This document shows positions 4,402-63,702 of a stretch of 64,000 nucleotides of DNA, one piece after another. The stretch's first letter is position 1. Each line of letters begins with the position of its first letter. Below the pieces are notes generated by a model, which saw only the letters and a list, made by a program, of their open reading frames with translations, was not told the origin of the DNA and ran no database searches. A program made the position numbers and the translations under genes. The DNA lies in the NCBI RefSeq assembly GCF_002797735.1, contig NZ_PGFG01000001.1:310001-374000 (forward strand), in the 5' to 3' direction. Source of the DNA: Thermoflavifilum aggregans. Lineage in GTDB: Bacteria > Bacteroidota > Bacteroidia > Chitinophagales > Chitinophagaceae.

Positions 4402-5685
4402 TTACTCCTCGTGCTTTTCCCGCTTGCGCAACTGGGCATTGATTAAGGGGGTTTTGGGCGCCAGGAAAAAGCCTGTGAGACTGGCAAACATGATGGGCAT
4501 CAACAGGTGAACACCGGTCATGGTGGCAACCAGAATAGTAGAACTCACCGGCGTTCGGGTCACACATGCATTCAGTGCAGCCATACAGCATACCATAATC
4601 AGTGCAGGTTGGGAATAGAGAAAGAAATGCGAAATAATCAACCCCAGCGTAGCGCCCGTGAAAAACAGGGGAATGATAAATCCGCCCCGCCATCCGGATG
4701 TGACAGTTACAGCAATGGATAGGATTTTAACAATCAGAATAGCTACCAGCAGCTGCAAGGTAAAATGCTGGGTAAACAATTCAGGAATCTGATAGTGGCT
4801 GAAATAACGGGTAATAGGCAATTCATACGCCATGATACCTAGCAACAGGCCGCCGATAGCCGTTTTGATGAAAACCGGGAAAGGCAGTGTCCTGAAAATC
4901 CTTTTTCCGGTTCGCACCAGAAATATAAAGACCCATCCCACGGCAGCCGCAATTACACCAAAACCAATAGCATAAAACGCATCGTTCACCTGTACCCGAT
5001 AGGATGCCGGAAATTGCCAGCTGGGGCCTATGCCGATATGGGTAATGATCACAAAAACAATATAGCTTGTACAACTGGCCACGATGGCCGGAATCAGGGC
5101 CTGATAATATTCTGTCACATGTTTATGGTGAAGGATTTCCAGGGCAAACAGGCTGCTGCCCAAGGGAGCACCAAACAAGGCCGTAAACCCGGAAGCCACG
5201 CCGGCAATGGTCATGGAACGGATATCCTCATTGCGGAAATGCAGCCGTTTGGCCAGCCAGGTTCCCGTGGATCCAGTAACCTGAATCATGGGTGTTTCAG
5301 GTCCCAGGCTACCCCCTGAAGCAATGCATACCAGCGAAGACAGAATCATGGCCGGATTATTCCGCGTATCCAGCCGGCCTCCCCGAAACCGGATATTGTT
5401 CACAATCAGATCAATTTCTCCGGGATCGCGCAGCAGGTAAATAATCAGGCCTGCTATCAATCCGGCTCCCGTCATACAGGTAATTACCAAGGCACCAGTA
5501 AAATGAGCTAACAGGCGGGTAAGAGCATCCAGAATGATCCAGTAAAAACCAGCCATGATTCCACCCAATAACCCGATGATAGCCCAGAGAATGAATATCC
5601 GGCTGAAGATAAATTCATTGATTTTCAACCGGTCATTAATGGTATACCGAAGTTCGACCAGTTTTTTCCGCGTGGCATAATCCAT
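4402..5685 (-). CDS. CLC-family chloride channel/transporter
   Basis: 427-residue polytopic membrane protein of the voltage-gated chloride channel (CLC) family. Characteristic stretches are GGSLGPETP at 124-132, which is the position of the GREGP signature, and GFTALFGAPLGSSLFALE at about 166-183, with further hydrophobic helices to the C-terminus. At the place of the gating glutamate of ClC-ec1 (the E of GREGP) there is Leu127; Glu130 follows the proline instead. No cytoplasmic CBS domains are present. The ATG at 5685 is preceded by AAGGA and by a -7 box 20 bases upstream. The gene is convergent with metH and divergent from batB. Whether it is a channel or a H+/Cl- exchanger, and which anion it prefers, cannot be told. 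Confidence 0.87.
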   Translation of the reverse strand: MDYATRKKLVELRYTINDRLKINEFIFSRIFILWAIIGLLGGIMAGFYWIILDALTRLLAHFTGALVITCMTGAGLIAGLIIYLLRDPGEIDLIVNNIRFRGGRLDTRNNPAMILSSLVCIASGGSLGPETPMIQVTGSTGTWLAKRLHFRNEDIRSMTIAGVASGFTALFGAPLGSSLFALEILHHKHVTEYYQALIPAIVASCTSYIVFVIITHIGIGPSWQFPASYRVQVNDAFYAIGFGVIAAAVGWVFIFLVRTGKRIFRTLPFPVFIKTAIGGLLLGIMAYELPITRYFSHYQIPELFTQHFTLQLLVAILIVKILSIAVTVTSGWRGGFIIPLFFTGATLGLIISHFFLYSQPALIMVCCMAALNACVTRTPVSSTILVATMTGVHLLMPIMFASLTGFFLAPKTPLINAQLRKREKHEE

Positions 5686-5702
5686 GATCCTTGTTTTTCG
5701 GG

Positions 5703-5710
5703 CAAAGATA
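5703..5710 (-). promoter_or_regulatory. -7 box for the CLC gene
   Basis: Read on the minus strand the sequence is TATCTTTG, matching TAnnTTTG. It lies 18 bases before the ATG, implying a very short leader. No clear -33 TTTG is seen at the right distance. Confidence 0.4.
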
Positions 5711-5974
5711 GCTTGTGCGAGGGTTCGTGCTGGCTTTTTGCCTTATAAGAACAATTTTTCTTTCCTGGTATAGTAGGCGTGACCTTTATCCACCGTCCTA
5801 ATCCTGAACGAGGCCTGTCTGCCAATAGATATAGATAACGATCTTCTGAGCGTTGTGCATGTACGCAGCAGATCCTGCTGGCAGGCAAGCAAACTCGGGA
5901 TACGGACGTAGGAAGAGTCGTTAATTTTTTTCAAAATATCAGCCGCTGTCCTTCCCGCAGGCCCCGGTAAAAAC

Positions 5975-5982
5975 TATATTTG
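5975..5982 (+). promoter_or_regulatory. -7 box for batB
   Basis: TATATTTG matches TAnnTTTG and lies 22 bases before the batB ATG. A -33 TTTG is not evident. Confidence 0.4.
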
Positions 5983-6004
5983 CCTGAGTGATGAATTCCT
6001 GAGC

Positions 6005-7021
6005 ATGCTTCGGTTTCAGCATCCCGGATATTTTCAGTGGCTATTGCTGCTCATTCCAGCGGTTCTGGCATTTGTATATGTGCTTTGGTGGAAACATCAA
6101 GCCATCCGCAAATGGGGAGATGCCCGGCTGGTACAGCAGTTATTTACCGATTACCGGCCAGCCCTGTTCCGCTGGAAATTTTTGCTTTTGCTTCTGGCCC
6201 TGGTGCTGGTGATTACAGGCGCAGCCAATCTGCAGATGGGTACGCACATGGAAAAGGTGGAAACCAAAGGAGTGGATGTGATGGTGGCCCTGGATGTAAG
6301 CAAAAGCATGCTCGCCCAGGATGTGCAGCCCAGCCGGCTGCAGCGGGCAGTTCAGCTGCTCAGCCGGTTGTTTGATCAGTTGCCTGGCGATCGGATTGGT
6401 TTGGTGGTGTTTGCCGGACAGGCTTATCTGCAGATGCCGCTCACGCTCGATCATGCAGCAGCCCACATGTACCTGAACAGCATCACCCCCGATATGGTAC
6501 CCACACCCGGTACCAACATCGCCAGTGCAATTGAAATGTGCCGTCAGGCTTTTAACAGCCAGGAAAAAACCCATAAAGCTATTATCCTGATTACCGATGG
6601 GGAAGATTTCGGTGAAGGTGCCGTTGAACAGGCCAGAAAGGCTTATCAGGAGGGTATTGTGATCTATACTGTGGGTGTGGGTACACCCGCAGGTGCCCCA
6701 ATTCGGGATCCGCAAACGGGCGATTACAAACGCGATGAAAACGGACAGATCGTTATTTCCCGCTTAAATGAAACTGAACTCAAACAAATTGCTGCCGAAG
6801 GACATGGCTCCTTCCAATACCTGGACCAAGTGAGCGATGTGGCCCGCCGTCTGGAAAATAGCATTAACCAGATGGGACAGAATACCTTTCAGGAAAACAT
6901 GTACACCGACTACAATAGCTATTTTCAATATTTCCTGGCCATCGCTTTGGTATTGCTCGTGCTGGAACTTTTCATCCCCGAAAAATCAAAAGGACTATGG
7001 GCAAAACGGGTTTCTGCCTGA
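6005..7021 (+). CDS. batB: BatB-like von Willebrand factor A membrane protein
   Basis: 338 residues. Two N-terminal membrane helices (about 12-28 and 58-77) precede a VWA domain, and a third helix lies near the C-terminus (about 307-325). The metal-ion-dependent adhesion site is intact: Asp97-x-Ser99-x-Ser101 (DVSKS), a threonine in the TPGTN loop, and the aspartate in ITDGED. This is the architecture of BatA/BatB proteins of the Bacteroides aerotolerance cluster, whose molecular role is still unclear (stress tolerance, envelope or chaperone-like complex). The next gene, which overlaps by 25 bases, is batC. The usual neighbours MoxR, DUF58, BatA and BatD are absent, so this is an isolated B-C pair. 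It could equally be called BatA by sequence alone. Confidence 0.85.
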   Translation: MLRFQHPGYFQWLLLLIPAVLAFVYVLWWKHQAIRKWGDARLVQQLFTDYRPALFRWKFLLLLLALVLVITGAANLQMGTHMEKVETKGVDVMVALDVSKSMLAQDVQPSRLQRAVQLLSRLFDQLPGDRIGLVVFAGQAYLQMPLTLDHAAAHMYLNSITPDMVPTPGTNIASAIEMCRQAFNSQEKTHKAIILITDGEDFGEGAVEQARKAYQEGIVIYTVGVGTPAGAPIRDPQTGDYKRDENGQIVISRLNETELKQIAAEGHGSFQYLDQVSDVARRLENSINQMGQNTFQENMYTDYNSYFQYFLAIALVLLVLELFIPEKSKGLWAKRVSA

Positions 7022-7680
7022 TATTGGTCATGTGTATGGCTGCCTCAGCCGCCGCCCAGTCGGCACACCAGCTCGTTCGGAAAGGCAACAAAGCCTATCA
7101 GAAGGGTGATTATGCCGACGCGGAAGCCGATTACAAAAAAGCGCTGGAAAAACAGCAAAACCTTATGCCCGCCTGGTTTAACCTAGGCAATGCCATGTAT
7201 CAGCAGCAACGCTACGCCGAAGCCCGTCAGCAATACCAGAATAGCTTGGAACTGGCCGGATCCCCGCAAGAGAAAGCTGATGCCTGGTACAATATGGGCA
7301 ATACTTTTATGAGTGAAAAAAATTGGCAGCAAAGCATCCAGAGCTATAAACAGGCGCTGAAGCTTAATCCGGCCGACAACGAGGCCCGCTATAACCTGGC
7401 CTACGCCCAGGAAATGCTGAAAAAACAACAGCAGCAACAATCCGGCGGCGGAAGCCAAAACCAGCAACAGCAACACAAAAACAACCAGAACCAGCAACAA
7501 CAAAATCAACAAAACCAACAAAATCAACAAAATCAGCAGCAAAACCAGAATCCCAATCAGCTCACCCCGCAGCAGGCTGATCAGTTGCTGAAAGCGCTGG
7601 CCCAGCAGGAACAAAAGATTCGTGAAAAACAAAACGAAAACCAAAAACCCCAGCAAGTAACATCCGGAAAGGACTGGTAA
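6997..7680 (+). CDS. batC: BatC-like tetratricopeptide-repeat protein with Gln/Asn-rich tail
   Basis: 227 residues: a signal peptide ending near AAAQ, about three TPR units at about 21-140 (motifs such as AWFNLGNAMY and ARYNLAYAQEM), then a low-complexity tail of glutamine and asparagine, then a charged helix (LTPQQADQLLKALAQQEQ). The start overlaps batB by 25 bases in another frame, so the two are translationally linked. BatC proteins are periplasmic TPR partners of BatA/BatB. The Q/N tail is encoded by a CAA/CAG/AAC-rich stretch at 7425-7560 that is likely to vary in length. BatD, normally the next gene, is missing; ispG follows under separate spacing. Confidence 0.83.
   Translation: MGKTGFCLILVMCMAASAAAQSAHQLVRKGNKAYQKGDYADAEADYKKALEKQQNLMPAWFNLGNAMYQQQRYAEARQQYQNSLELAGSPQEKADAWYNMGNTFMSEKNWQQSIQSYKQALKLNPADNEARYNLAYAQEMLKKQQQQQSGGGSQNQQQQHKNNQNQQQQNQQNQQNQQNQQQNQNPNQLTPQQADQLLKALAQQEQKIREKQNENQKPQQVTSGKDW
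7425..7560 (+). repeat. CAA/AAC-rich low-complexity tract inside batC
   Basis: An imperfect run of CAA, CAG, AAC and AAT codons encoding polyglutamine/asparagine. Units such as AAAATCAACAAAACCAAC recur around 7501-7540. It is a simple-sequence tract in coding DNA, not a CRISPR: there are no unique spacers. Confidence 0.75.
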
Positions 7681-7876
7681 AGCCATGCATCTGGCTGAAC
7701 CTGTGAACGGTATCGAATTGTGCATGAACTGGTTGTTAAATTTTCTGTCATGCCCCCATCTTTGCAGGCTTTGGAAAACATGCCAACCTGATTTTGCGTA
7801 ACTTCGAAGATCCGTTTGCATGGTTTTATTTACGCCTACCTGAGGTGAGTTTGTAGACTATTTAACACGAATCATC

Positions 7877-9892
7877 ATGCAGTATTATGCTCCATCATTG
7901 ACCCGATATCAACGTTTGCCTACACGCGAAGTAAAAATAGGGGACCTGCCGCTGGGCAATTTCCACCCTATCCGCATCCAGACTATGACCACCACCGATA
8001 CGATGGATACGGAAGCTACGGTGGCTCAATGCATCCGTTGCATAGAAGCCGGTGCTGAGCTGGTGCGCATCACTGCTCCCAGCATCCGGGAAGCGGAAAA
8101 CCTGCTGAATATCAAAAAAGCTCTCCGCCAACGGGGCTATCATACCCCGCTGGTGGCCGATATTCATTTTACGCCCAATGCTGCGGAAGTGGCAGCCCGC
8201 ATCGTGGAAAAAGTGCGTATCAACCCCGGCAATTATGTAGATAAAAAGAAATTTCAGTTCAAGGAATACACCGATGCCGAATATCAGGCCGAGATCGAAC
8301 GCATCCGCGAACGCTTCGTGCCTCTGATCCGCATCTGCAGGGAATATGGTACAGCCATGCGCATCGGCACCAACCACGGCTCGCTCAGCGATCGCATCAT
8401 GAGCCGCTATGGCGATACGCCTATGGGTATGGTGGAAAGTGCCATGGAATTCCTGCGTATTGCCCGCGATGAAAATTACCATCAGATCGTACTGAGCATG
8501 AAAGCTAGCAATCCCCAGGTGATGGTGCAGGCTTACCGGCTGCTGGTGAAAACTATGATGGAAGAATTTGGCGAATGTTATCCGCTGCACCTGGGCGTTA
8601 CTGAAGCCGGTGATGGTGAAGACGGCCGTATCAAAAGTGCCATGGGCATCGGCACACTGCTGGAAGACGGTATTGGCGACACCATCCGGGTATCGTTGAC
8701 CGAGGAGCCCGAATACGAAATTCCGGTATGCCGCGACCTGGTGAAGCGATACACGGGCAGGGAAAATCACAAGCCCATACCTCCGGTGGAAAAGCTGGCC
8801 TACTCACCCTTTCAGTACCAGCGCCGCCTTACCCGGCCAGTAGGCCGCATAGGAGGCAGGCAGGTGCCGGTGGTGATTGCAGATTTCAGCGAAGAGCCGC
8901 TGACCCGTGAAAAACTGGCCGACATTGGTTATCGTTATGATCCGAAAAGCGACAAATGGCATGTAAGCGACACGGCGCCCGATTTCATCTATACTTCCGG
9001 CCGATATGTGCCTTTCGATTTACCCGGCACGCTTCAGGTGATCTGCGATGCGCAGGTCTATGCCCATGTGCCCGACCGCCAGCGCTATTTTCCGCTGTTT
9101 ACCTGGACTACCTGGCTGCAAAGGCTGGATGATCCTTCACCCTATCTGAATTTCATTGCCCTGGATACCCTCAACACCACCGACGAAGAATGGGAACAGC
9201 TCCTGCAGTCGCTCGACGACACCACCGTGCTGTGTATCTATACCCAAAACCGGCATGCTATGCCGGCCGTGCGGCAAAAGATCAACGACCTGATGTTGCG
9301 GGGCATCGATATACCCGTGATTCTCTGCGTGGAGAGTTTTCATTCCTCTATTGACGATCAGCTCATCCAGTTTGCCATCGAGGCCGGGGCATTGCTGCTC
9401 GACGGCATGGGCGATGGTATCTGGCTGAAAAATCATCCTGACCTGGTGAAAAACCTCCGGGTGAGCGGCCGTACCTATCTGGAAGTGCACAGCCATGCCC
9501 AGTTTCTCAACAATACCGCATTTTCCGTGCTGCAGGCTTCCCGTACACGTATCAGCAAAACGGAATATATCTCCTGCCCTTCATGTGGCCGCACCCTGTT
9601 CGATCTGCAGGAAACCACAGCCCGCATCCGCGCAGCTACCCATCACCTGAAAGGCGTAAAAATTGCCGTGATGGGCTGCATTGTAAATGGCCCCGGCGAA
9701 ATGGCCGACGCCGACTTTGGTTATGTGGGTAGCGGCCCCGGGAAAATTACCTTGTATAAAGGCAAGGAAATCGTAAAACGCAATGTACCCGCCGAAACCG
9801 CTGTGGATGAGCTCATTCAGCTGATTAAGGAAAACGGCATGTGGACCGATCCGCCTACTGTTCATACTCCGGTTTCATCGGCATCATCCTGA
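7877..9892 (+). CDS. ispG: 4-hydroxy-3-methylbut-2-enyl-diphosphate synthase (long form)
   Basis: 671 residues; IspG (GcpE) converts methylerythritol cyclodiphosphate to HMBPP in the MEP pathway of isoprenoid synthesis. The N-terminal TIM barrel starts with TREVKIGDLPLG and IQTMTTTDTMD. The C-terminal domain carries the [4Fe-4S] ligands Cys567 and Cys570 (SCPSCGRTLFDLQ) and Cys601 in MGCIVNGPGE, with Glu608 completing the motif. The protein is much longer than the roughly 370 residues of E. coli IspG because of a middle insertion between barrel and cluster domain (about 280-550). This is the form found in plants, Chlamydia and Bacteroidota. It is probably monocistronic and convergent with the beta-barrel gene at 9899. 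Confidence 0.95.
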   Translation: MQYYAPSLTRYQRLPTREVKIGDLPLGNFHPIRIQTMTTTDTMDTEATVAQCIRCIEAGAELVRITAPSIREAENLLNIKKALRQRGYHTPLVADIHFTPNAAEVAARIVEKVRINPGNYVDKKKFQFKEYTDAEYQAEIERIRERFVPLIRICREYGTAMRIGTNHGSLSDRIMSRYGDTPMGMVESAMEFLRIARDENYHQIVLSMKASNPQVMVQAYRLLVKTMMEEFGECYPLHLGVTEAGDGEDGRIKSAMGIGTLLEDGIGDTIRVSLTEEPEYEIPVCRDLVKRYTGRENHKPIPPVEKLAYSPFQYQRRLTRPVGRIGGRQVPVVIADFSEEPLTREKLADIGYRYDPKSDKWHVSDTAPDFIYTSGRYVPFDLPGTLQVICDAQVYAHVPDRQRYFPLFTWTTWLQRLDDPSPYLNFIALDTLNTTDEEWEQLLQSLDDTTVLCIYTQNRHAMPAVRQKINDLMLRGIDIPVILCVESFHSSIDDQLIQFAIEAGALLLDGMGDGIWLKNHPDLVKNLRVSGRTYLEVHSHAQFLNNTAFSVLQASRTRISKTEYISCPSCGRTLFDLQETTARIRAATHHLKGVKIAVMGCIVNGPGEMADADFGYVGSGPGKITLYKGKEIVKRNVPAETAVDELIQLIKENGMWTDPPTVHTPVSSASS

Positions 9893-48929: not shown

Positions 48930-51185
<2,256 letters not shown>

Positions 51186-51224: not shown

Positions 51225-51379
51225 CTGATAATTTTTATAGGAAAATAGTTTTCATCTATTTATTTCAGAAAGCTGAATAACCATCATAATTACGTTTTTC
51301 GAAAGTAAAATTCCCGATTTGAATATTGATTTTCTCAATTGACGGGCAATTTTGCTTCCACATTTCAAAAACAAATACC

Positions 51380-53548
51380 ATGAAAAAATTACATCTCTCT
51401 ATTGCAGCTATATGCATCATCCATATCGGATTTGCACAACAAAAAGATTCCGTTGTTCCATCGCAGGATAGCCTGAAAATACATCAGATTCATCATTTAC
51501 AGGAGGTAATTGTTACTGATCAGAAACATTCCTATCAGGCGGATAATCCTTCACTATCCCTTCGTTTGTTAACCCCCTTACAAAAAATACCGCAAAATAT
51601 TCAGGTAGTTACGGAGGATGTGCTTAATGATCAGCAAGTCACCATGATGGGTAATGATGTTATTCGGAATGTGAGCGGGGCCGTACGCCTGGAGCACTGG
51701 AGCATGTACACTCGGATCAATATGAGAGCCACTCGTGCTTCGGAATTTCGCAATGGGATGAATATTACTTCCACATGGGGACCGCTTTCGCTTGATATGG
51801 GTCTGGTTGATCGCATAGAATTTGTGAAAGGGCCGGCAGGGTTTTTAATGTCAAATGGTGAACCAGGTGCTATTATGAATGTGGTCACCAAAAAGCCGAC
51901 AGGGATAGATCAGGGCGAATTGTCACTTATGTTTGGAAGCTACAGTTTATATCGGTTTTCTATAGATAAAGATGGCATTCTCGATACAAACGGGAAATTG
52001 CTCTATCGTATAAATCTGATCGGACAAACACAAAACTCTTTTCGTCCTTATGAATTTAACCGCAGATTGAGTCTCCATCCGGTTATTACTTATAAGATAA
52101 ACGACAAAACAGATTTTACGGCAGAATACACCCTGCAATCTGTAAGCATGTCTAACGTGGGATCACCTTATGCTTATTCTACCAGAAACTATGCTGATGT
52201 GCCGAAAAGCTTTACCACATTGGAACCCGGATTGGATCCAGCTCGTATCTCAGAACAAAATCTGTTTCTTTATTTTCATCATCATATCAATAATCATTGG
52301 TTGTTAACCGTTCAAACGGCTTATTTCAATTACATGCAACGGGCATCGGATATATGGCCTTCATCGCTGGATAGCGCGGGGAACATGATTCGTGGTGTTT
52401 CCAATTTTGATGTACTTAGTGAATATGCTTTCGGGCAAATTTTTCTGAATGGAAATTTATCAACTGGTCGTCTTACACATCACATACTTACTGGCCTGGA
52501 TCTGGGTAATAAACAAAACTGGTATGACTGGAATCAATATCATGAACTGGATACCAAAGATCATCCGTTTAATATTTATCAACCGGTTTATGGATCCCCA
52601 TCCAATGGCCTTCCAACATTTGATAGGTCAAAAACCATCAGGCAACGTGCAGGTAACAATACTATCAATCAAACTTATTCTGCTCTTTATGTACAGGATG
52701 AGCTGGGATTTGCTGAAGACAAAATCAGGCTTACCCTGGCTGGCCGTTATACCAAAGTCCAGCAATCAGATTATGGCACACCTTATCAGGCTGATCACTT
52801 CACACCCCGTGTAGGATTAAGTGTATCGCTTAGCAATGATGCATCAGTGTATGGGTTGTTTGATCAGTCATTTCTTCCGCAATCGGGATTACTGCGAGGC
52901 AATAAGCTTCCCAAACCTCAAACCGGCAATAATCTGGAATTCGGAATCAAAAAAGATTTCAGAAATGGATTGTGGAACGCAACGGTATCTGTTTACCGGA
53001 TTCAGAAAAACGGATTGCTGGTAAATGATCCGGATACTACGGATAATCCCAACAACCGCTATTCCCTACAATTGGGTCAGGCAGTAGCCAAAGGCGTGGA
53101 GCTGGATATCCGGGGACAAATTGCAAAAGGTTTGCGTGCAGTAATCAATTATGCTTATACAGATGCCAGTATCACAAAGGATATTAATAAAAATAAGGTA
53201 GGCCAGCCATTACCGGGATATGCACACCATATCATCAACACATGGCTTACATATCAGTTACAGAACGGCAAATGGAAAGGTTTGGGTGTATCTGCAGGTT
53301 GTTCCTATCAGAAAGATCGGATTGACTGGTCAGGAGTTTTTCAAGCTGTAGTTCCCTACAGGCCATTGCCTGACTATTTCAGGCTCGATGGCGGTGTTTT
53401 TTGGCAAATTAATCAACTGAAAATAAATCTGACGGTAAATAATATTTTGAATGCTTACCTGTATTCCGGTGGGGCTTATGCCAATTTTTACTACTGGCAG
53501 GCAGAAGCACCCCGAAATTATAAACTCGGCATTTCATATAATTTTTGA
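51380..53548 (+). CDS. TonB-dependent siderophore receptor
   Basis: About 722 residues from ATG 51380, which begins a good signal peptide (MKKLHLSIAAICIIHIGFAQQ); the ATG at 51326 would add 18 residues before it. A TonB-box-like LQEVIVTD precedes the plug (LLTPLQKIPQNIQVVTEDVLNDQ, VEFVKGPAGFLMSNGEPGAIMNVVTKKP), and the 22-strand barrel ends in the usual aromatic terminus YKLGISYNF. The plug patterns are those of ferric-hydroxamate/FhuA-FpvA type receptors. Downstream, 3 bases away, is a PepSY membrane protein often paired with such receptors for reductive iron release. No Fur box was identified with confidence. Confidence 0.92.
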   Translation: MKKLHLSIAAICIIHIGFAQQKDSVVPSQDSLKIHQIHHLQEVIVTDQKHSYQADNPSLSLRLLTPLQKIPQNIQVVTEDVLNDQQVTMMGNDVIRNVSGAVRLEHWSMYTRINMRATRASEFRNGMNITSTWGPLSLDMGLVDRIEFVKGPAGFLMSNGEPGAIMNVVTKKPTGIDQGELSLMFGSYSLYRFSIDKDGILDTNGKLLYRINLIGQTQNSFRPYEFNRRLSLHPVITYKINDKTDFTAEYTLQSVSMSNVGSPYAYSTRNYADVPKSFTTLEPGLDPARISEQNLFLYFHHHINNHWLLTVQTAYFNYMQRASDIWPSSLDSAGNMIRGVSNFDVLSEYAFGQIFLNGNLSTGRLTHHILTGLDLGNKQNWYDWNQYHELDTKDHPFNIYQPVYGSPSNGLPTFDRSKTIRQRAGNNTINQTYSALYVQDELGFAEDKIRLTLAGRYTKVQQSDYGTPYQADHFTPRVGLSVSLSNDASVYGLFDQSFLPQSGLLRGNKLPKPQTGNNLEFGIKKDFRNGLWNATVSVYRIQKNGLLVNDPDTTDNPNNRYSLQLGQAVAKGVELDIRGQIAKGLRAVINYAYTDASITKDINKNKVGQPLPGYAHHIINTWLTYQLQNGKWKGLGVSAGCSYQKDRIDWSGVFQAVVPYRPLPDYFRLDGGVFWQINQLKINLTVNNILNAYLYSGGAYANFYYWQAEAPRNYKLGISYNF

Positions 53549-53551
53549 TTC

Positions 53552-54751
53552 ATGCCTGTAAATAAAAAATCACCTATTCTTCGTATCATAGCCTGGCTGC
53601 ATTTGTGGCCAGGCTTGATTTCTGGCCTAATTGTTTTTATTGTCTCCATTACAGGATGCCTGTTTGTTTTTCAAAAAGAAATTTCAGAGCTAACCCGAAA
53701 AAAGATATTATTCGTCAGCTCTCATCATCCTGCAAATACGTTCCCGCTGCATATCCTTATGGATAACGCACAGTCAGCTTTGGGAAATGATAAACATATT
53801 ACTTACATTACGGCCTATGCTGATCCGTCAAGAGCATGGGAAATGATGGCATATGCACCCGGTGATTCGAAAGCTGTCTTTTTCCCAAATACGCTCCGTT
53901 ATTATGAATCAGTATTTGTAAACCCTTACACCGGTGCAGTTACAGGCAAAATCAATTACAAGAAAGATTTTTTTGTCATTATCAAGTACATTCACTGGAG
54001 TTTATTTCTGAATACTATTTATGGTCAACCCATTGTAGGCTGGAGCACATTGATCTTTATGCTGATATTGATAACCGGTATGATTTTATGGTTTCCTGGT
54101 AAATGGAATCGCCATGAAATTAAAAAAGCATTTACCATTGCGTGGAGAAGCCGATGGAAACGTGTAAACTACGATCTGCATAATGTGCTGGGATTTTATA
54201 TCTTCAATATAGCATTGATTCTTGCTTTTACCGGAATACTATTTGCATTCGGGTGGCTGAGAAATATGTTTTCAGATGTAAAACATCCGCGTTCCAAAAC
54301 TGCGGTTCAGGTATCTGATCAGATGCTTACTTCGCAACCCGAAGGTTTTCTTCCCGATCAAATATTCCAGGCTGTACGGAAACATTTTCCGAATGCGAAA
54401 CGATTCATTCTTCAACTTCCTGCTGACAGCACTGCGCCCATATATTTGAGTGTATATTTCCAGAATGAAGTGTACTATGATGCCCGCACATTAGCATTTG
54501 ATTCACAAACAGGGAGACTCATATCAGACGAAGCATTCTCATCCAAAACTTTTGGTGAAAAGATGCTACAGATGAATTATGATATTCATGTAGGATCCAT
54601 TGGTGGAATCACTGGTAAAATCATTGCCTTCATTGGGAGCTTGATATGCGCAAGTCTTCCGAAAACGGGATTCATCATCTGGTGGGGAAAACGAAAAAAG
54701 AAAACAAACAAAAACCGGAAACCGGTTATTCTTGTTTCTGAGAGTTGCTGA
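53552..54751 (+). CDS. PepSY-associated transmembrane protein (iron reductase-like)
   Basis: 399 residues. First helix: LRIIAWLHLWPGLISGLIVFIVSITGCLFVFQKEI, the typical start of PepSY_TM proteins with His in WLHLWPG. Further helices lie near 150-180 (WSTLIFMLILITGMILWFPGKW), 215-235 (GFYIFNIALILAFTGILFAFGW) and the C-terminus (GGITGKIIAFIGSLICASLP). Conserved histidines (IHWSL, DLHNVLG, YDIHVGSIGG) could bind haem. Members next to siderophore receptors, such as PiuB/FhuF-like partners, are thought to reduce iron from siderophores. It is co-transcribed with the receptor. Confidence 0.88.
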   Translation: MPVNKKSPILRIIAWLHLWPGLISGLIVFIVSITGCLFVFQKEISELTRKKILFVSSHHPANTFPLHILMDNAQSALGNDKHITYITAYADPSRAWEMMAYAPGDSKAVFFPNTLRYYESVFVNPYTGAVTGKINYKKDFFVIIKYIHWSLFLNTIYGQPIVGWSTLIFMLILITGMILWFPGKWNRHEIKKAFTIAWRSRWKRVNYDLHNVLGFYIFNIALILAFTGILFAFGWLRNMFSDVKHPRSKTAVQVSDQMLTSQPEGFLPDQIFQAVRKHFPNAKRFILQLPADSTAPIYLSVYFQNEVYYDARTLAFDSQTGRLISDEAFSSKTFGEKMLQMNYDIHVGSIGGITGKIIAFIGSLICASLPKTGFIIWWGKRKKKTNKNRKPVILVSESC

Positions 54752-55019: not shown

Positions 55020-55808
55020 TTATTTCCTTCCCTGAAAAAATCCCTGATCGCTTAGCCATTTTCTGGTGAGTGCTATGGCTTTATCGCGCAATTGTTCAGG
55101 TGTTTGTTGCCTGGATTCCAGAAACACTGTAAAAAAATAAGGATGTTTGTTTTCTTCTTCCCAGCCCAGCATCCAGGCCTGTGCCGTGGTGTCGGTCTGA
55201 ACAGCCGCGGTAACATAACTTAGGGAATATCGGGAGGTATTTTCTTTGAGCATGATTTGCTGCACCAGTCGCTGAGGGCGTTCGTGGAAGGAAAGTTCAT
55301 GAAAATACAGATGAATCAGCAATCCCAGTTGTTCATCCGGAGATATCCGCAGGATGCCGTTTTGCCAGAATGGTTGTGTGGTGTCTATGCTAACCTGGTT
55401 GCCATAATGAACGGAGTCGAGCCAGAATTGCATGACTGCTTTTCGGATATGGGTGGAAAGCCATTGGTTTAGGGCTGCCGGATGCTGGCGGAATAAATCA
55501 CCCATAGACATGGAATCGGTATCTGAAATTGGGACAATGCTGCTGGTATCAGCCACCAGTCCTGATTCCAACGCAACCAGTGAGCTGAATACAACAAATC
55601 CGGATCCGGGAACATAGCGCTGGCGCGCTTTTTCAACAGGATATACGCTTACCTGATCGTGCATATTATCATAAAGCATCAGGCAACCCTCTGCCTGTGT
55701 GCTATCCAGATAGGATTGCCAGGATTTTTTTTCTTTGATACCAGAATGGCAACCCATGAAAAAGCCCGTCCAGAGCAGAACCAGCAATAAATATGGATGC
55801 TTATGCAT
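55020..55808 (-). CDS. Class D beta-lactamase-like lipoprotein, catalytic lysines missing
   Basis: 262 residues. Lipobox GFFMGC gives Cys20, so it is exported and lipid-anchored. Class D (OXA) landmarks are kept: YGN at 135-137 and FWQNGILRISPDEQ at 147-160, plus the terminal AWMLGWEEENKHPYFF. At the place of the S-x-x-K active-site motif the sequence is Ser69-Gly-Phe-Val72, and at the KTG position it is Val199-Thr-Ala201. Both lysines needed for acylation are therefore absent while the fold appears intact. It is probably a ligand-binding or regulatory derivative rather than an enzyme. It starts five bases after kbl ends on the same strand, implying one transcript. Confidence 0.75.
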   Translation of the reverse strand: MHKHPYLLLVLLWTGFFMGCHSGIKEKKSWQSYLDSTQAEGCLMLYDNMHDQVSVYPVEKARQRYVPGSGFVVFSSLVALESGLVADTSSIVPISDTDSMSMGDLFRQHPAALNQWLSTHIRKAVMQFWLDSVHYGNQVSIDTTQPFWQNGILRISPDEQLGLLIHLYFHELSFHERPQRLVQQIMLKENTSRYSLSYVTAAVQTDTTAQAWMLGWEEENKHPYFFTVFLESRQQTPEQLRDKAIALTRKWLSDQGFFQGRK

Positions 55809-57214: not shown

Positions 57215-57697
57215 ATGACGGAAAAAGAGTATAATGATTGTGTGGATCTCTATGCCGACGGGCTGTATCGTTTTGTGGTGAAAAACCTGAGACAGGAAGA
57301 AACAGCGCGGGATCTGGTGCAGGTGAGTTTTGAGAGGCTCTGGCAACATCGCAAAGATGTGGCATTTGCCAAAGCAAAATCATATTTGTTTACCGTTGCG
57401 TATCATGCCATGATTGATCATCTGCGCGTTACCAGGCTTCGCCATCATGTGCCCCTGCATCCGGAGTCTTTTGTACAGCAGCCCCGAACAGAATGGGAAG
57501 TGAAGCATATTGTTGAAAAAGCATTGAATGAACTAGATCAAACGCAGAAAATGCTGATCATGCTGAAGGATTATGAAGGTTATCGGTATGAAGAAATTGC
57601 GCAGATTACCGGTTTAAGTCTGGCACAGGTGAAAGTGTATCTGCATCGGGCAAGGAAAATCCTAAAGCAGGTATTGGAAAAATATTTTGTATTCTAA
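57215..57697 (+). CDS. ECF-type RNA polymerase sigma factor
   Basis: 160 residues. Sigma region 2 spans about 10-75 (YRFVVKNLRQEETARDLVQVSFERLWQHR, AKSYLFTVAYHAMIDHLR) and region 4 about 105-155 (LNELDQTQKMLIMLKDYEGYRYEEIAQITGLSLAQVKVYLHRARKIL). No region 1 or 3, hence extracytoplasmic-function class. The next gene, nine bases on, encodes a protein with one membrane helix and no enzyme motifs, the usual anti-sigma position. The set probably senses an envelope signal and controls the outer-membrane protein gene at 58554 among others. There is no carboxyl FecI-type partner receptor. Confidence 0.92.
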   Translation: MTEKEYNDCVDLYADGLYRFVVKNLRQEETARDLVQVSFERLWQHRKDVAFAKAKSYLFTVAYHAMIDHLRVTRLRHHVPLHPESFVQQPRTEWEVKHIVEKALNELDQTQKMLIMLKDYEGYRYEEIAQITGLSLAQVKVYLHRARKILKQVLEKYFVF

Positions 57698-57705
57698 ATC
57701 GTGAA

Positions 57706-58551
57706 ATGATGAATCCAGAACGATTGGAAGAGTTGATGATACGGGCTGTAGATGAAGAACTTTCCGAAGAAGAGTGGAATGAGCTGCAGGCCTATCTTGC
57801 TGCATATCCGCAATTACAGGCCGAATGGGAGAAATGGCAGATGACACGGTTGCCTGCAGAAACAAGAACTTATCCCGATAAGCAGCAACTATATCGCCGT
57901 AGCGGAAAACGGGTGAAATATCTGTATGGGATGGCTGCAGCAGCCTGCATAGCTGGTTTATGGATCTTAGGAAAAATGTTTATGCCCGCAATCCATCCTG
58001 TCAGGAATCTAGGAGCAGACCAGCCGCAAGTATCCACAGCGGCGATTTCTATTCCAAAAGAAGAAAAACAAAAATCAAATGTGATCTCTTCATCTACCCA
58101 TGCTGGTGTTGATTCATCCCATCATCCCAATACATATCAGTCTGTTGTTTCGCATCAACCCATTATTTCACAAACTTCTGCAAGACCACAATCATTGTCC
58201 ATGCAGGATACGCTTTCAGAAAAAACGATTGTGTATGCAACAAATATTGCACAGCCGGGAAATGAAGCTGATGTATTACCATTGGACCGGTTACCCACCA
58301 TTACCGATCTGCATGCCGAAGCCGATACGAGCGTGGGGATAAGTTATCATAAAAAACAAATTCATTTAAATTCCATACAGGTGTCAGACACGGCAAATGC
58401 ACCGGTTTTGCTTCTGTCGGCACGTAGCCCCCGCACATTTAACCGGATCATACTGGCTGTGGCACGAACGGTAGATAATGCACATAAGATTCAGCAATCG
58501 TTGTTTGCGTCTGATCATATTCGTATTGAACTTCAACAGGAAAATCATTAA
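57706..58551 (+). CDS. Probable anti-sigma factor, single-pass membrane protein
   Basis: 281 residues: an acidic cytoplasmic N-terminus (PERLEELMIRAVDEELSEEEWNELQAYLAAYPQL), one membrane helix at about 71-91 (YLYGMAAAACIAGLWILGKMF), then a long Ser/Thr/Gln-rich periplasmic part. The N-terminal helices resemble anti-sigma domains that hold ECF sigma factors, though no zinc HxxxCxxC motif is present. The call rests mainly on position directly after the sigma gene. It is followed three bases later by the outer-membrane protein gene, suggesting a single three-gene transcript. Confidence 0.72.
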   Translation: MMNPERLEELMIRAVDEELSEEEWNELQAYLAAYPQLQAEWEKWQMTRLPAETRTYPDKQQLYRRSGKRVKYLYGMAAAACIAGLWILGKMFMPAIHPVRNLGADQPQVSTAAISIPKEEKQKSNVISSSTHAGVDSSHHPNTYQSVVSHQPIISQTSARPQSLSMQDTLSEKTIVYATNIAQPGNEADVLPLDRLPTITDLHAEADTSVGISYHKKQIHLNSIQVSDTANAPVLLLSARSPRTFNRIILAVARTVDNAHKIQQSLFASDHIRIELQQENH

Positions 58552-58553
58552 CC

Positions 58554-59573
58554 ATGAACATATTGCACAAAACCTTTGCAGTTGCTGCAGGAATTTCTGT
58601 TTTGCTGGTGCTGCAAACCTCCGCACAGGCCCAGCAAAAGCAATGGATAAAAGTAGAAACCCGTAATGGTGTGCATGTATATGCAGTTGATGAAAATGGT
58701 GAAACAGAAATAAATCTGTTGCACGACACTACACCTTCCGGAGTACATCTGGTAAAAGACAGTATTCCGACCGTTGAAGAAGATACTGTGATTGTGGGCC
58801 GCTGGCGTATCATTCATCGGGAATCGCCGGAAGGACATTCGTATACTGATATTTACCGCATTCCCAAACCAGCTTCCCAGCGCGTGTTTACCCATTGGCT
58901 GGGGATTGATTTTGGTTGGAACAATTTTGTGGATCGGAGTGATTACGCGGGTCTGTCAGGTGTGAATCCCAATGTAAAGGCTTATGATTATTCGGCCCAA
59001 GGATTATATACATTTGCGCCCCGCCCGCCAAGTGATCCGCTTACGGCATCAGAGTTTTCGCTGGTTCCGGAAAAATCGGTCAATGTGAACATCTGGATTT
59101 TCCGCCAGCAGCGTTATCTGCGCAATAACAAGATAGGCATGGAATACGGGCTGGGTTTGCTGATGAACAATTTCCGCTACAGGAGAAACATTACTTATGT
59201 AAATCAGGGAAGCCATACGGAGGTGATTCGGGATAGTATTTCATTCCGGAAAAACAAACTGTTTACCGAATACCTTACCGTGCCTGTGTTCCTTTGTTTT
59301 CATCTGTCAGGTAGAGGCGATGAAGGTTTTCAGGTAAAACTCGGTTCCAATTTCGGATATCTGTTTAAATCGCGTACCAAACAGGTGAGCGATGCGCGGG
59401 GTAAGGTGAAGACCAATGATAATTTCAATCTCAGTACTTTCCGGGTGTCGCCTGAGCTCGCTTTGGGCTGGCATAGCTGGTCGTTTTACGTGACATACAG
59501 CCTTACACCCTTGCATCAATACGGCGTTAAGCAATATCCTTATGCTTTTGGCATCCGGTTTAACGGATTTTAA
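58554..59573 (+). CDS. Outer-membrane beta-barrel protein (porin-like)
   Basis: 339 residues with signal peptide (VAAGISVLLVLQTSAQAQQ). An N-terminal segment of about 80 residues (QWIKVETRNGVHVYAVDENGETEINL) precedes an outer-membrane barrel rich in alternating hydrophobic and aromatic residues, ending YPYAFGIRFNGF with the final aromatic residue needed for membrane insertion. Patterns such as NKIGMEYGLGLLMNNFRYR and LTVPVFLCFHLSG are typical of the PorT/OmpW-like Bacteroidota barrel families. It is the third gene after the sigma/anti-sigma pair and is probably controlled by it. Its cargo or partner is unknown. Confidence 0.75.
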   Translation: MNILHKTFAVAAGISVLLVLQTSAQAQQKQWIKVETRNGVHVYAVDENGETEINLLHDTTPSGVHLVKDSIPTVEEDTVIVGRWRIIHRESPEGHSYTDIYRIPKPASQRVFTHWLGIDFGWNNFVDRSDYAGLSGVNPNVKAYDYSAQGLYTFAPRPPSDPLTASEFSLVPEKSVNVNIWIFRQQRYLRNNKIGMEYGLGLLMNNFRYRRNITYVNQGSHTEVIRDSISFRKNKLFTEYLTVPVFLCFHLSGRGDEGFQVKLGSNFGYLFKSRTKQVSDARGKVKTNDNFNLSTFRVSPELALGWHSWSFYVTYSLTPLHQYGVKQYPYAFGIRFNGF

Positions 59574-59605
59574 AAAAAAAATTGTTGTATTCAACAAACG
59601 GTATG

Positions 59606-59613
59606 TAACTTTG
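59606..59613 (+). promoter_or_regulatory. -7 box of the Cys-rich protein/TonB receptor cluster
   Basis: TAACTTTG matches TAnnTTTG, 19 bases before the ATG at 59633. TTG at 59585-59587 is at roughly the right distance for a -33 box. The end of the box overlaps the palindrome at 59613-59632. Confidence 0.5.
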
Positions 59614-59632
59614 CTACGTATATTATAGTAGC
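59613..59632 (+). promoter_or_regulatory. Near-perfect 20-base palindrome, candidate operator
   Basis: GCTACGTATATTATAGTAGC: arms GCTAC-TATA and TATA-GTAGC pair around a single central T with one unpaired G. It begins at the last base of the -7 box and ends at the base before the ATG, so it covers the expected transcription start. This is a typical place for a repressor site; the TAC...GTA arms recall BlaI/MecI/CopY-type operators, but the regulator is unknown. As RNA it could also form a hairpin over the ribosome-binding region. Confidence 0.55.
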
Positions 59633-59998
59633 ATGAGATTACTTGCTGTCATATGGTTTATAGCAGTGTTATTGCAGGCGTTTAGTAAGAATCTCATTAT
59701 CCTTGACTATCATTTGAATATTAAATACATTTCTACACATTTATGTGTTAACCGAAATCATCCTGAACTACATTGCGAAGGAAAATGTTTTTTGAAAAAA
59801 CAGCTGGAAAAAGATCAACATCGAAATCCTGCAGGTGTACCTGCCGGCAAATTCGCTCCGGATATTCTGTTTTGTGATTGTCATTTCCGTTTACTTGTGC
59901 CTGTTTTTACATCACAGCCTTTTCAATTTCTTCACTTTGTTCCGTTTTATTTAACCGGTATTACCAGTCATATTTTCCATCCTCCTGCCACGTGTTAA
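59633..59998 (+). CDS. Small Cys/His-rich exported protein, function unknown
   Basis: 121 residues with a hydrophobic N-terminus (LLAVIWFIAVLLQAFSKN). Cysteines are clustered: Cys38, then HCEGKCFLKKQL (Cys48, Cys52), then CDCH (Cys81, Cys83), with several His near the C-terminus (SHIFHPPATC). The central block LCVNRNHPELHCEGKC is one I recall from uncharacterised Bacteroidota proteins next to TonB receptors. The cysteine spacing suggests a metal site, possibly copper, but this is unproven. It is the first gene of a group with the receptor (60175) and the CPCC lipoprotein (62473), directly behind a promoter and palindrome. Confidence 0.7.
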   Translation: MRLLAVIWFIAVLLQAFSKNLIILDYHLNIKYISTHLCVNRNHPELHCEGKCFLKKQLEKDQHRNPAGVPAGKFAPDILFCDCHFRLLVPVFTSQPFQFLHFVPFYLTGITSHIFHPPATC

Positions 59999-60174
59999 GC
60001 TCATCATGCTTACCGGATTTTCTATTTTGACGTGGCACACAAACTATTGTGTTTGTAGCGATCTGTCCTATCCGGCATGATGATTCAGCGCAACATGCGT
60101 TATACATCTTGTTTGCTGCATGTTAAGCCGGCAGTATCGATTCTTGATTCATTCAATTATTAAATGTTTTACAC

Positions 60175-62466
60175 ATGAAACATATTTTCCTTTCTTTCAT
60201 ACTCAATTTGCTGTTATTATATGCCTTGGCACAATCGTCATCTGCTATACATGGCATTGTTATCAATGCTTCTACGCTAGAGCCTGTTGCGGGTGCTGTG
60301 ATCCGTGATTCGCACAATAAAGTGATAGCGCTTACGGATGCACAGGGCAGATTCAGTTTTTCCTCCTCTGATGCAGATAGTCTTGTGATTTCATGTCTGG
60401 GATATGAAACTCTGAAAATACCGGCCATTGCTGCTTTTGGTAAATTATACCTCAAACCTGCTGCTACTGCATTGCAGGAGATGGTGGTTACAGCCAGCCG
60501 CGAAGGTGAACAACGTTCAACGGTTCCTGTGGCACTGAGTGTGATTTCATCCCGTATGATGCAGCAAACCCATGCCATTACATTGGATCAACTGCTCAAT
60601 CAGGTTACGGGTGTGTATATGGTTGATCTAGGGAATGAACAACATACTATGGCTATTCGCCAGCCTATCGGATATCGGAGTGTATATCTGTATCTGGAGG
60701 ATGGTATTCCCATCCGTACGGTGGGTAATTTCAATCATAATGCATTGATTGAAATCAACAGTGCAGCAGTAAAAAATATTGAAATCATTCGTGGTCCAAG
60801 TTCATCTTTATATGGCAGTGATGCCATAGGCGGAGCAGTTAATTTTATCACCTATGATCCATCTGCGATTCCTGCCGCAAAGCTTTCTGTGGATGGCTCA
60901 TCTATCGGTTACCATCGTGCGCAGTTTCAGGTATCGGGTACAAAAAACAAGATGGGAATTGGTTTATACGGATATTATGCCAATCAGCATGATACTTATC
61001 ATCAACATAATGATTTTCATAAACTCGCTCTCACACTGAAAGGTGATGCATATATCAACGATCATTTAAAATGGGAAAACGAACTATCTATCATTGATTA
61101 CCGGTCTGATATGAATGGCGGACTCGATAGTCTTGATTTTTATAAGAAAAACTATGCGAGCTATTATACATTCAACTACCGAAGTGTAAAAGCCATTCGT
61201 TTTGCAAGCAGTTTGCATTATGAAAAAGGCAAGCTGGGTGAAGGTTTTGCTACAGCCTATTTTCGGTACAACGATATAGGCCAGAATCCTACATATCGGA
61301 TAAAACGTACAGCTAATCCTTTGAAGGCAACCGGTGAAATCAATGATAACCGGTATACAAGTTATGGTTTGCTGATGCAACACACTTTGAAAAATGCCTC
61401 TTCACATCTTCAGGCAATTTTTGGAATCAATGCAGAATATAGTCCATTGAATTATCATGCCCAGTTTATTCAGATTCAGAAAGATACAGCCGGTTATTAT
61501 ATCAGTTATACACCTACAGATTCTGTACTTACCGATTATCATGCAGGAATTGATAATGAAGCGGCTTATATGCAGCTGAAATGGGAGCCGGTACATGCAT
61601 TATATATGGTAGGTGGAATCAGGTACGACCGGTTGGCATATCATTTTGTGAACCATTTGCCTCCGTCGGCCTATACAGGCGCACCCTCCAGCACCAATGT
61701 GTTTTCACATGTTACACCCAAAATCGGTCTGACCTATCACCTTTCCCTGCATTCAGGTTTTTATGCCAATATCAGCCAGGGATTTGCACCTCCGGATATT
61801 ACGGATTTATACAACGGTGTGAAAGTGCCTTATTTAAAACCAGCTGTTTACATGAATTATGAAGCGGGAGGATGGTTCATGTGGCAGCAGGGAAAGGGAA
61901 GCATACAGGCCGATGTATATCGCATGATTGGAACTAATGAAATTATTTCTGTGCGGCAGGATGATGGATCCTATCAAAATGAAAATGCAGGAAAAACCTT
62001 GCATGAAGGTCTTGAATATACAATTGCATACAGTCCTTTAGCGGGTGTGCAATTCAAATGGAATGGCACCTGGGCTTATCATGAGTTTCTGGAATATCAG
62101 ATCAACGGAAAGGATTATAGCCATACACAAATGAATGCCGCTCCCAAGATTTTATACTTTGCTGAAATCACCTATCATCCTGGATTTTTGAAGAATGCTT
62201 ATATAGCTTTTGACTGGCAGCATGTGGGTAAATATTACATTGATCCGGCCAATACGCAGACGTACAAAGGCTATGATTTGTTTCATATTCGATCGGGGTA
62301 TCAATGGAACCGCCTCGGTGTATGGGTCAATGTATTGAATGTGATGAATACTATTTATGCTACTACGGTTGATTATGCCAGCTATGGAAACACTTATCGG
62401 GCCGGCATTCCACGCACCTGGCAAATAGGTGTCAGTTATGATTTTACAGGTAATCCGAAATCTTAA
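60175..62466 (+). CDS. TonB-dependent receptor
   Basis: 763 residues: signal peptide (LSFILNLLLLYALAQ), a CarboxypepD_reg domain (SAIHGIVINASTLEPVAGAVIRDSHNKVIALTDAQGRFSF), a TonB-box-like LQEMVVTAS, a plug (LDQLLNQVTGVYMVD, IEIIRGPSSSLYGSDAIGGAVNFIT) and a long barrel ending IPRTWQIGVSYDF. The plug resembles receptors for vitamin B12, haem or metal complexes rather than SusC. Substrate is not predictable, but neighbours with Cys-rich motifs make a metal or metal complex plausible. There are 176 bases between it and the upstream small gene with no clear promoter, so a single transcript is likely. The next gene starts six bases after its stop. Confidence 0.92.
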   Translation: MKHIFLSFILNLLLLYALAQSSSAIHGIVINASTLEPVAGAVIRDSHNKVIALTDAQGRFSFSSSDADSLVISCLGYETLKIPAIAAFGKLYLKPAATALQEMVVTASREGEQRSTVPVALSVISSRMMQQTHAITLDQLLNQVTGVYMVDLGNEQHTMAIRQPIGYRSVYLYLEDGIPIRTVGNFNHNALIEINSAAVKNIEIIRGPSSSLYGSDAIGGAVNFITYDPSAIPAAKLSVDGSSIGYHRAQFQVSGTKNKMGIGLYGYYANQHDTYHQHNDFHKLALTLKGDAYINDHLKWENELSIIDYRSDMNGGLDSLDFYKKNYASYYTFNYRSVKAIRFASSLHYEKGKLGEGFATAYFRYNDIGQNPTYRIKRTANPLKATGEINDNRYTSYGLLMQHTLKNASSHLQAIFGINAEYSPLNYHAQFIQIQKDTAGYYISYTPTDSVLTDYHAGIDNEAAYMQLKWEPVHALYMVGGIRYDRLAYHFVNHLPPSAYTGAPSSTNVFSHVTPKIGLTYHLSLHSGFYANISQGFAPPDITDLYNGVKVPYLKPAVYMNYEAGGWFMWQQGKGSIQADVYRMIGTNEIISVRQDDGSYQNENAGKTLHEGLEYTIAYSPLAGVQFKWNGTWAYHEFLEYQINGKDYSHTQMNAAPKILYFAEITYHPGFLKNAYIAFDWQHVGKYYIDPANTQTYKGYDLFHIRSGYQWNRLGVWVNVLNVMNTIYATTVDYASYGNTYRAGIPRTWQIGVSYDFTGNPKS

Positions 62467-62472
62467 AAACAG

Positions 62473-63702
62473 ATGATGATGCGGAAAATATATGGTTCTC
62501 TTTTGATCATTGGTTTGATGGGATGGATATCTTGCTCACGTTCTGAAAAGAATGTTGAACAGATATTTCAGCAAAGGGGCTGGAATTTTTCCTGCCCCTT
62601 TCTTGCTTCAGATTCACAGGGACATATTTTACTTACCTGGGCTGGTATGGATAGTTCAGGAAGGCATAGCCAGATATGGATAGCCAGATTCAACAGGCAG
62701 ACGCTGCAATTGCAGGATGTTGCTCCCGTGCCGCATACAGAGGGTGTGTATCCACATGGCGAAAATCTGCCCAAGCTGGCCTGTGCATCCAATGGTGTCT
62801 GGATACTGGCTTTCGGCACACCTGCCCATCATTCATCCAATCCTTATGCAGGTGAAGTAAAATATGTGGTTTCCACAGATGCTGGTAAACATTGGTCTGA
62901 AGCACATCCATTGGTTAATGACACAACCAGTCATGATCAGCGCTATTTTTCGCTGATACCGTTTTCAGATAATCGCTTTTTCATCATCTGGATGGATGAT
63001 CGTTTGAAAACGAAAGCGGAAGGTTCAACATTGTATTTTGCAGAGCTTAGTCCGGCGAAAGGTATTTTATATGAAAAGCCTATTGCTTATCAGCTTTGTC
63101 CCTGTTGCCGTACAGCCATGCTTTACGATTCAACGAAACATGCATTGCACATTGCTTTCCGGCAAATTATTCACGACAGCATCCGTGATATCATGCATAT
63201 GGTATCGTTTGATCAGGGTCAAACTTTTCAAGAACCTCAAAGAGTAAGTTTTGATAACTGGGTTGTTGATGCTTGTCCGCACAGTGGTCCTTCGCTGGCT
63301 GATTATGGCGGCAATCTGCATATCGTATGGTACACGTTGGGTGGTGGTTGGGGCATTTTCTATGCACGCACAACGGATGATAAACTTTTTACTTACAAAC
63401 AGCAGGTGAGTGATTTTAATATGTCGGCTAAACATGCGCAGATTGCTGCTTTGCCGGATGGACGGCTTGTGATAGCCTGGGATGAATATCCGCTGCATAG
63501 TACAACAGCTCATCAACGCATTGGTTTACAGCTCAGAGATACGGATGGCAAATGGGTCAAAACCTGGTATATTGCAGATACTACCGGAGATCTGCAGTTT
63601 CCCGTCCTGTTACCTGTAAGCCGTCATCAGCTGTTTATAGCCTATACCCGGCAGCAGGGCCGACATTCGGCTGTGATATGTCGTACATGGGATCTTCGTT
63701 AA
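62473..63702 (+). CDS. Lipoprotein with sialidase-like (BNR) propeller and CPCC motif
   Basis: 409 residues. Signal peptide with lipobox LMGWISC, so an exported lipoprotein. Repeated beta-strand blocks with BNR/Asp-box-like turns (STDAGKHWSE, SFDQGQTFQE) indicate a sialidase-type propeller. An unusual motif CPCC lies at 209-212 (YQLCPCCRTAM), with Cys268 in VDACPHSGPS; these are conserved-looking and could bind metal or form disulfides. Catalytic residues of true sialidases were not recognised, so a binding role is more likely. It is the last gene of the palindrome-controlled cluster, six bases after the TonB receptor. Confidence 0.75.
   Translation: MMMRKIYGSLLIIGLMGWISCSRSEKNVEQIFQQRGWNFSCPFLASDSQGHILLTWAGMDSSGRHSQIWIARFNRQTLQLQDVAPVPHTEGVYPHGENLPKLACASNGVWILAFGTPAHHSSNPYAGEVKYVVSTDAGKHWSEAHPLVNDTTSHDQRYFSLIPFSDNRFFIIWMDDRLKTKAEGSTLYFAELSPAKGILYEKPIAYQLCPCCRTAMLYDSTKHALHIAFRQIIHDSIRDIMHMVSFDQGQTFQEPQRVSFDNWVVDACPHSGPSLADYGGNLHIVWYTLGGGWGIFYARTTDDKLFTYKQQVSDFNMSAKHAQIAALPDGRLVIAWDEYPLHSTTAHQRIGLQLRDTDGKWVKTWYIADTTGDLQFPVLLPVSRHQLFIAYTRQQGRHSAVICRTWDLR

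Follow-up and report, generated by a model that had tools for sequence, protein, structure and literature searches.

The window analysed here, a 64,000-nucleotide stretch of the Thermoflavifilum aggregans genome, carries at positions 59606–63702 three genes that form a conserved operon: a small open reading frame (ORF) of an unnamed family, a TonB-dependent receptor and a beta-propeller lipoprotein, referred to below as SMALL, TBDR and LIPO. On balance we favour the view that the trio is a copper-acquisition operon headed by a nascent-peptide copper sensor, which would make it the Bacteroidota counterpart of the cruR-crtA-crpH operon. The three ORFs, which stand as described in the initial annotation of the window, all lie on the forward strand, with a gap of 176 bp between SMALL and TBDR and of 6 bp between TBDR and LIPO:

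59633–59998, + strand: SMALL, 121 amino acids, putative copper-sensing nascent-chain regulatory ORF with CruR/CutF-like logic but not of the DUF2946 family (judged from its family, its invariant residues and the ratio of non-synonymous to synonymous substitution rates, dN/dS)
60175–62466, + strand: TBDR, 763 amino acids, TonB-dependent receptor, putative importer of copper or a copper complex (PF00593, E=1.9e-30; PF07715, E=8e-17; AlphaFold predicted local distance difference test, pLDDT, 86)
62473–63702, + strand: LIPO, 409 amino acids, beta-propeller lipoprotein of the BNR/Asp-box type (PF13088, E=5e-8; model pLDDT 90, propeller fold)

Scanning GTDB species with a LIPO profile yielded 80 loci, from Chitinophaga, Rufibacter, Pontibacter, Flavobacterium, Segetibacter, Niastella, Saprospiraceae and others, and SMALL was called by the gene caller in 60 of them. 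TBDR is the next gene after SMALL in 57 of these 60 loci and LIPO is present in 59, the C-x-C-C lipoprotein coming after the receptor, so that the grouping of the three genes holds, and the gene-neighbourhood conservation over Bacteroidota that had been proposed as a check is found. Variants include a Niastella locus with the order SMALL-LIPO-YHS and no receptor, loci where HMA, HYC_CC_PP, SCO1 or MbnH adjoin the trio, and five genomes with the order SMALL-TBDR-PepSY_TM (PepSY_TM recognised by Pfam in one and by phmmer in the rest). Comparison with the sister genome of T. thermophilum, of the same genus in the Chitinophagaceae, gave dN/dS values of 0.16 for SMALL, 0.09 for TBDR and 0.19 for LIPO, indicating purifying selection on all three.

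The evidence for a sensor comes mainly from SMALL itself. The window protein has no match in Pfam or NCBIfam, and its family occurs in 129 of the 199 order genomes and 121 of the 296 Bacteroidota genomes searched. Among 50 diverse members only C38, C48, G50, C52, P117 and P118 are invariant, and two stretches of codons are involved:

59744–59788, + strand: codons of the putative sensor motif C38...H47-C48-x-G50-K-C52, with the three cysteines and the glycine invariant
59975–59986, + strand: codons of the C-terminal F-H-P-P, a putative arrest motif, PP being close to the C-terminus in all 95 members

The PP pair, in most members part of F-H-P-P, keeps close to the C-terminus: the two are 1–6 residues apart in 94 of the 95 members and at most 11 apart in all of them (other proteins, 7.9%), the value for the window protein being 3. 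The Cys motif and PP are separated by 64.9 ± 1.9 residues, and the stretch between the two is the least conserved part of the protein, with 0.9–1.1 bits as against 3.0 at the Cys motif and 2.7 at PP. An N-terminal hydrophobic segment was seen in 93% of members, as judged from hydropathy only (KD17 >1.6). The CEGKC motif pointed out in the initial annotation is present at residues 48–52 and supplies three of the invariant residues, whereas CDCH, at residues 81–84, is not conserved among the homologues aligned. In some families SMALL genes also occur as tandem pairs 0.5–4 kb apart (phylum search: G259:C2:233170/235650, G411:C26 and G442:C1).

An experimentally studied system has the same layout. 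In CruR of Bordetella pertussis a CXXC motif detects copper while the chain is nascent, RAPP stands three residues from the end, and the spacing varies by no more than one or two residues; CruR regulates the TonB copper transporter CrtA by way of Rho (PMC9426467), and its translation arrest has been demonstrated in vitro (PMC12992588). CutF of Rhodobacter capsulatus has a CruR-like layout, but what it regulates is a multicopper oxidase, and the CutF pause becomes longer with copper (PMC9973294). As in cruR-crtA-crpH (PMC9426467, PMC12914433, PMC13038864), the trio is headed by a small exported-type ORF with a Cys motif and a C-terminal PP, a long gap follows, the TonB receptor comes second, and there is a link to respiratory cuproenzymes; the complete layout is matched by SMALL-TBDR-PepSY_TM in the five relatives mentioned above (PMC9426467, PMC12914433). 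The earlier remark that no described system has this composition was thus too strong. Further features shared with the CruR/CutF type of upstream ORF (uORF) are a length below 150 amino acids with PP in the last 15 residues, the N-terminal hydrophobic segment, the Cys site at a fixed distance from PP, and the position at the head of a same-strand copper-gene operon. There are also differences: the Cys motif of SMALL is C-x9-C-x-G-x-C and not CXXC, its terminal motif FHPP and not RAPP, and its spacing about 65 and not 45 residues; the profile comparisons do not place the receptor in the CrtA group; and the place of crpH (PepSY_TM) is taken in the window by the CxCC propeller lipoprotein. Copper uORFs with RAPP or RGPP are reported to be lacking in Bacteroidota (PMC12992588), which fits a different arrest motif in SMALL, and SMALL is possibly among the many CutF-like proteins reported from this phylum (PMC9973294).

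The intergenic gap behind SMALL has a median length of 100 bp over the family. In the window it contains one prominent structure, whose arms are retained in T. thermophilum while the loop is changed:

60001–60083, + strand: long stem-loop starting two bases 3' of the SMALL stop codon, candidate attenuator or structure masking the ribosome-binding site (−26.3 kcal/mol, z −3.06)

Over 95 loci, the 90 nucleotides that follow SMALL show more structure than coding controls do (p=6e-10). Considering the Cys sensor, its fixed spacing, the C-terminal PP and the position of SMALL as first gene before a structured gap, the initial view of an exported metal-handling protein is probably wrong, and most likely SMALL acts as a nascent-chain copper sensor on the ribosome rather than as a metal carrier. 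A periplasmic copper chaperone or buffer, exported and working through its Cys site and C-terminal HPP together with the receptor and LIPO but without nascent-chain regulation, would account for the signal-like N-terminus, the copper-type Cys motif, the purifying selection on SMALL and the operon shared with the receptor. We nevertheless regard it as doubtful, as the sequence from sensor to FHPP is hardly conserved although its length is, PP keeps its place at the very end of the chain, the gap after SMALL is long and structured in comparison with that between TBDR and LIPO, and the studied proteins of the same layout, CruR and CutF, act in cis, CutF not being detectable (PMC9426467, PMC9973294).

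That the metal is copper is well supported by neighbour families and by regulation, and what the initial annotation had offered as a guess from cysteine patterns thereby gains ground. We examined the neighbour families of 39 SMALL-centred operons of the order. SMALL is usually the first gene, a same-strand gene lying less than 60 bp upstream in only 5 of the 39. MbnP, a copper-binding family by its curated model, occurs in 9 operons, YtkA in 7 (which also carry their own TonB receptor, 7), the di-haem enzyme MbnH/CCP in 6, PepSY_TM in 5, SCO1 in 2 and HMA in 1; SCO1 is a known copper chaperone family. At least one listed family is present in 34 of the 39 operons, a total that is descriptive since the families were listed after looking at the neighbours. 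The window genome itself contains a second SMALL (L031, G000:C1:59000-76000, 5021-8457), which heads an operon of a YtkA-domain lipoprotein with the sequence HMMNMMHSCP and a TonB receptor with CTDKMDP in its plug.

A further link leads to N2O reductase. The gene nosZ was found in all 12 genomes of the order sample with a close LIPO versus 62 of 187 others (p=4e-6), and within the family in 10 of 10 versus 14 of 25 (p=0.011), the p-values ignoring phylogeny beyond this family-level comparison. The trio and the nos cluster share one locus in Flavisolibacter (L213) and in genome G120 (L214). Regulation points in the same direction. A Crp/Fnr-type palindromic site, [AT]TGAY-N4-RTCA[AT], is present in 24 of 60 SMALL upstream regions, where 0.33 would be expected from mononucleotide shuffles, and mostly lies 35–37 bp before a −7 box. 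Its centre then falls near −41, which is the class II position for activation at Crp/Fnr promoters. When the composite of site and −7 box was searched over 199 genomes, it was found to precede the cytochrome c-nosZ-nosDFY operon of the genome to which the window belongs (L211:6999, at 36 bp from the −7 box). It also occurs there before a sulfide:quinone-reductase-like gene (L212:7360) and is spread over the order, where it could define an anaerobic or N2O regulon.

Co-regulation and co-occurrence with nosZ also bear on whether the operon might serve copper defence and not uptake, with LIPO, for example, sequestering surplus copper at the cell surface. A Cys-rich lipoprotein could do so, and CutF-like ORFs often sit before efflux genes (PMC9973294). 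We hold this to be very unlikely, given the connection with nosZ, the presence of a TonB receptor, which is an importer, and the finding that no efflux ATPase or RND (resistance-nodulation-division) genes were seen in the operons.

The assignment of the second gene as a TonB-dependent receptor is confirmed by its two Pfam matches, and its domains comprise the plug, the barrel and CarbopepD_reg_2. Eight Met and His residues are invariant in 40 relatives (M149, H157, M159, H188, H403, H610, H636 and M653). Q402-H403 is among the invariant positions, and the region of CrtA with its Q-x-H ligand site (H358) lies outside the alignment. No Cys is conserved in more than 60% of 69 receptors, which implies that the CxxxM-HxM site of OprC is absent. 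NosA/OprC (TIGR01778), a TonB-dependent outer-membrane copper receptor, is tied to N2O reductase in P. stutzeri (PMC8610252) and resembles the putative copper receptor of the trio in this respect, but differs in this site and in that the trio receptor comes with SMALL and LIPO; TIGR01778 was not among the best 25 NCBIfam matches. In the receptors at L052/L131 and L044 the N-terminal carboxypeptidase-like domain contains a CxCxC...CxxC cluster, which the window receptor lacks.

The nearest solved structure to the receptor profile is PqqU (PqqU/YncD over the full length, E about 1e-46). CrtA (9rvq) follows behind PqqU and Cir, with E=9e-28 and mainly over 475–755; membership of the receptor in the CrtA group is unsupported by the profile comparisons made, and the two are only generally related. 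The PqqU match, together with the fact that siderophores are often the cargo of TonB receptors, could suggest an operon for another metal or cofactor, with a receptor importing pyrroloquinoline quinone or an iron or zinc chelate. This seems improbable to us, because the receptor far misses the PqqU equivalog cut-off (91.9 of 1200 bits), the gene context is repeatedly copper, the plug and barrel carry the invariant Met/His set, and the operon has no biosynthesis or iron genes.

In LIPO, the sialidase-type propeller recognised initially is borne out by the Pfam match and by a fold search with the model, which resembles lectins, CylK and sialidases (Foldseek E down to 2e-11; VIA Z 28–34 in the top rows). 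Among the structure matches listed there is no recognised metal-binding propeller, which proves nothing either way. What sets LIPO apart from the BNR/Asp-box propellers with which it shares its fold (sialidases, PLL lectins, CylK; about 10% identity) are two invariant motifs:

63097–63108, + strand: codons of CPCC (C-x-C-C, residues 209–212), with C209, C211 and C212 invariant
63274–63282, + strand: codons of CPH (residues 268–270, within ACPH at 267–270), invariant

C209, C211, C212, C268 and H270 are invariant in 40 relatives, and C268-P-H270 is retained throughout. Of the CPCC motif reported initially the three cysteines hold; Pro210 varies and is usually Gln, so the conserved motif is C-x-C-C rather than CPCC. 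C-x-C-C-x-T and G/A-C-P-x-x-G-P mark a wider family that occurs throughout Bacteroidota and at times adjoins SCO1-like, CopC-like or HupE-like genes, recognised by eye and not by family search.

The promoter region of the trio contains two features on which the initial annotation had placed the control of the operon:

59606–59613, + strand: −7 box TAACTTTG of the Bacteroidota type, the operon promoter, recognised from sequence and identical in T. thermophilum
59613–59632, no strand: GCTACGTATATTATAGTAGC, claimed as a 20-base palindrome and judged a chance feature, with perfect arms of only 5 bp

The first stands, since 36 of 60 relatives have a TAnnTTTG box equivalently placed, no more than 60 bp ahead of SMALL. 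Palindrome control does not: an inverted repeat with arms of at least 5 bp arises in 72% of shuffles of the same 59-bp stretch, the T. thermophilum copy, GCTACGTATATTGTAGCAGC, has lost one pair and is broken, and the palindrome was not found in other relatives, so GCTACGTATATTATAGTAGC was rejected as an operator. A perfect TTGTTG-TATT-CAACAA repeat at 59582–59597 is likewise no more than chance would give (31% of shuffles contain 6-bp arms) and imperfect in the sister species.

Several of our results weigh against the copper-acquisition reading. By profile the receptor is nearer to PqqU than to CrtA. None of the 50 SMALL members matches DUF2946 (PF11162), whether in Pfam at E≤10 among the best 25 of 29 families or in NCBIfam at E≤1; homology with CruR or CutF is therefore unsupported, and we claim the same working principle and not shared ancestry. 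The copper neighbour families were chosen after inspection, and 4 of the 39 SMALL operons begin with a family other than those recognised. No Crp/Fnr site was found in the window trio promoter, and such control of this trio was set aside. Structure with z<−1.5 follows SMALL in 44% of cases versus 33% for other intergenic gaps (p=0.035), a weak excess; an attenuator as a family-wide feature was dropped as main evidence, and gap structure is treated as weak support. Finally, nosZ is present in 31 of 50 named trio genomes, so it was rejected as the sole client, and N2O reductase appears as one client among several.

The operon and its conservation, the motifs, the copper neighbours and, in many relatives, the promoter type in common with nosZ are established, whereas arrest, copper binding and transport are inferred. 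With copper acquisition as the preferred reading, the operon might work as follows. When copper is low at the nascent chain, the ribosome would pause at the C-terminal FHPP codons of SMALL and cover the start of the gap, which would block the stem-loop or Rho and allow the receptor and the lipoprotein to be made. Copper bound at C38, C48 and C52 of the emerging chain, at a fixed distance of about 65 residues ahead of PP, would alter the pause and turn the downstream genes off. Copper, either free or as a chelate, would cross the outer membrane through the receptor, and the CxCC/CPH propeller lipoprotein, occupying the place of the PepSY_TM reductase of parallel operons, would bind it, pass it on or reduce it. 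The imported copper would supply respiratory cuproenzymes, including N2O reductase.

Three neighbouring regions of the window were also noted. Directly upstream of the trio, positions 57215–59573 encode an extracytoplasmic function sigma factor, a putative anti-sigma factor and an outer-membrane barrel, a block that is retained in T. thermophilum and missing at the L073 trio. At 51326–54751 a further TonB receptor precedes a PepSY_TM protein; the pair resembles an iron system and is divergent from a catalase-peroxidase-like gene (48933–51185). A lipoprotein at 55020–55808 on the reverse strand has a domain like class D beta-lactamases and BlaR1 sensors (NF012161, E=2e-33, under the cut-off).

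Bacteroidota hold many of the clade II N2O reductases, which limit N2O emission, and to our knowledge copper acquisition across the outer membrane has not been described in this phylum. If our interpretation is correct, the operon would yield a testable copper importer and a new family of copper-binding lipoproteins. For the family as a whole, the chances seem evenly balanced that this phylum-wide group of unnamed small ORFs (C-x9-C-x-G-x-C ... FHPP) consists of arrest peptides that sense copper and govern copper importers and genes for copper-enzyme maturation. Copper sensing by nascent chains would then exist in a second form, with an arrest motif other than RAPP and coupled to a new copper-binding propeller lipoprotein, and the peptides would be a new and widespread class of nascent metal sensors.
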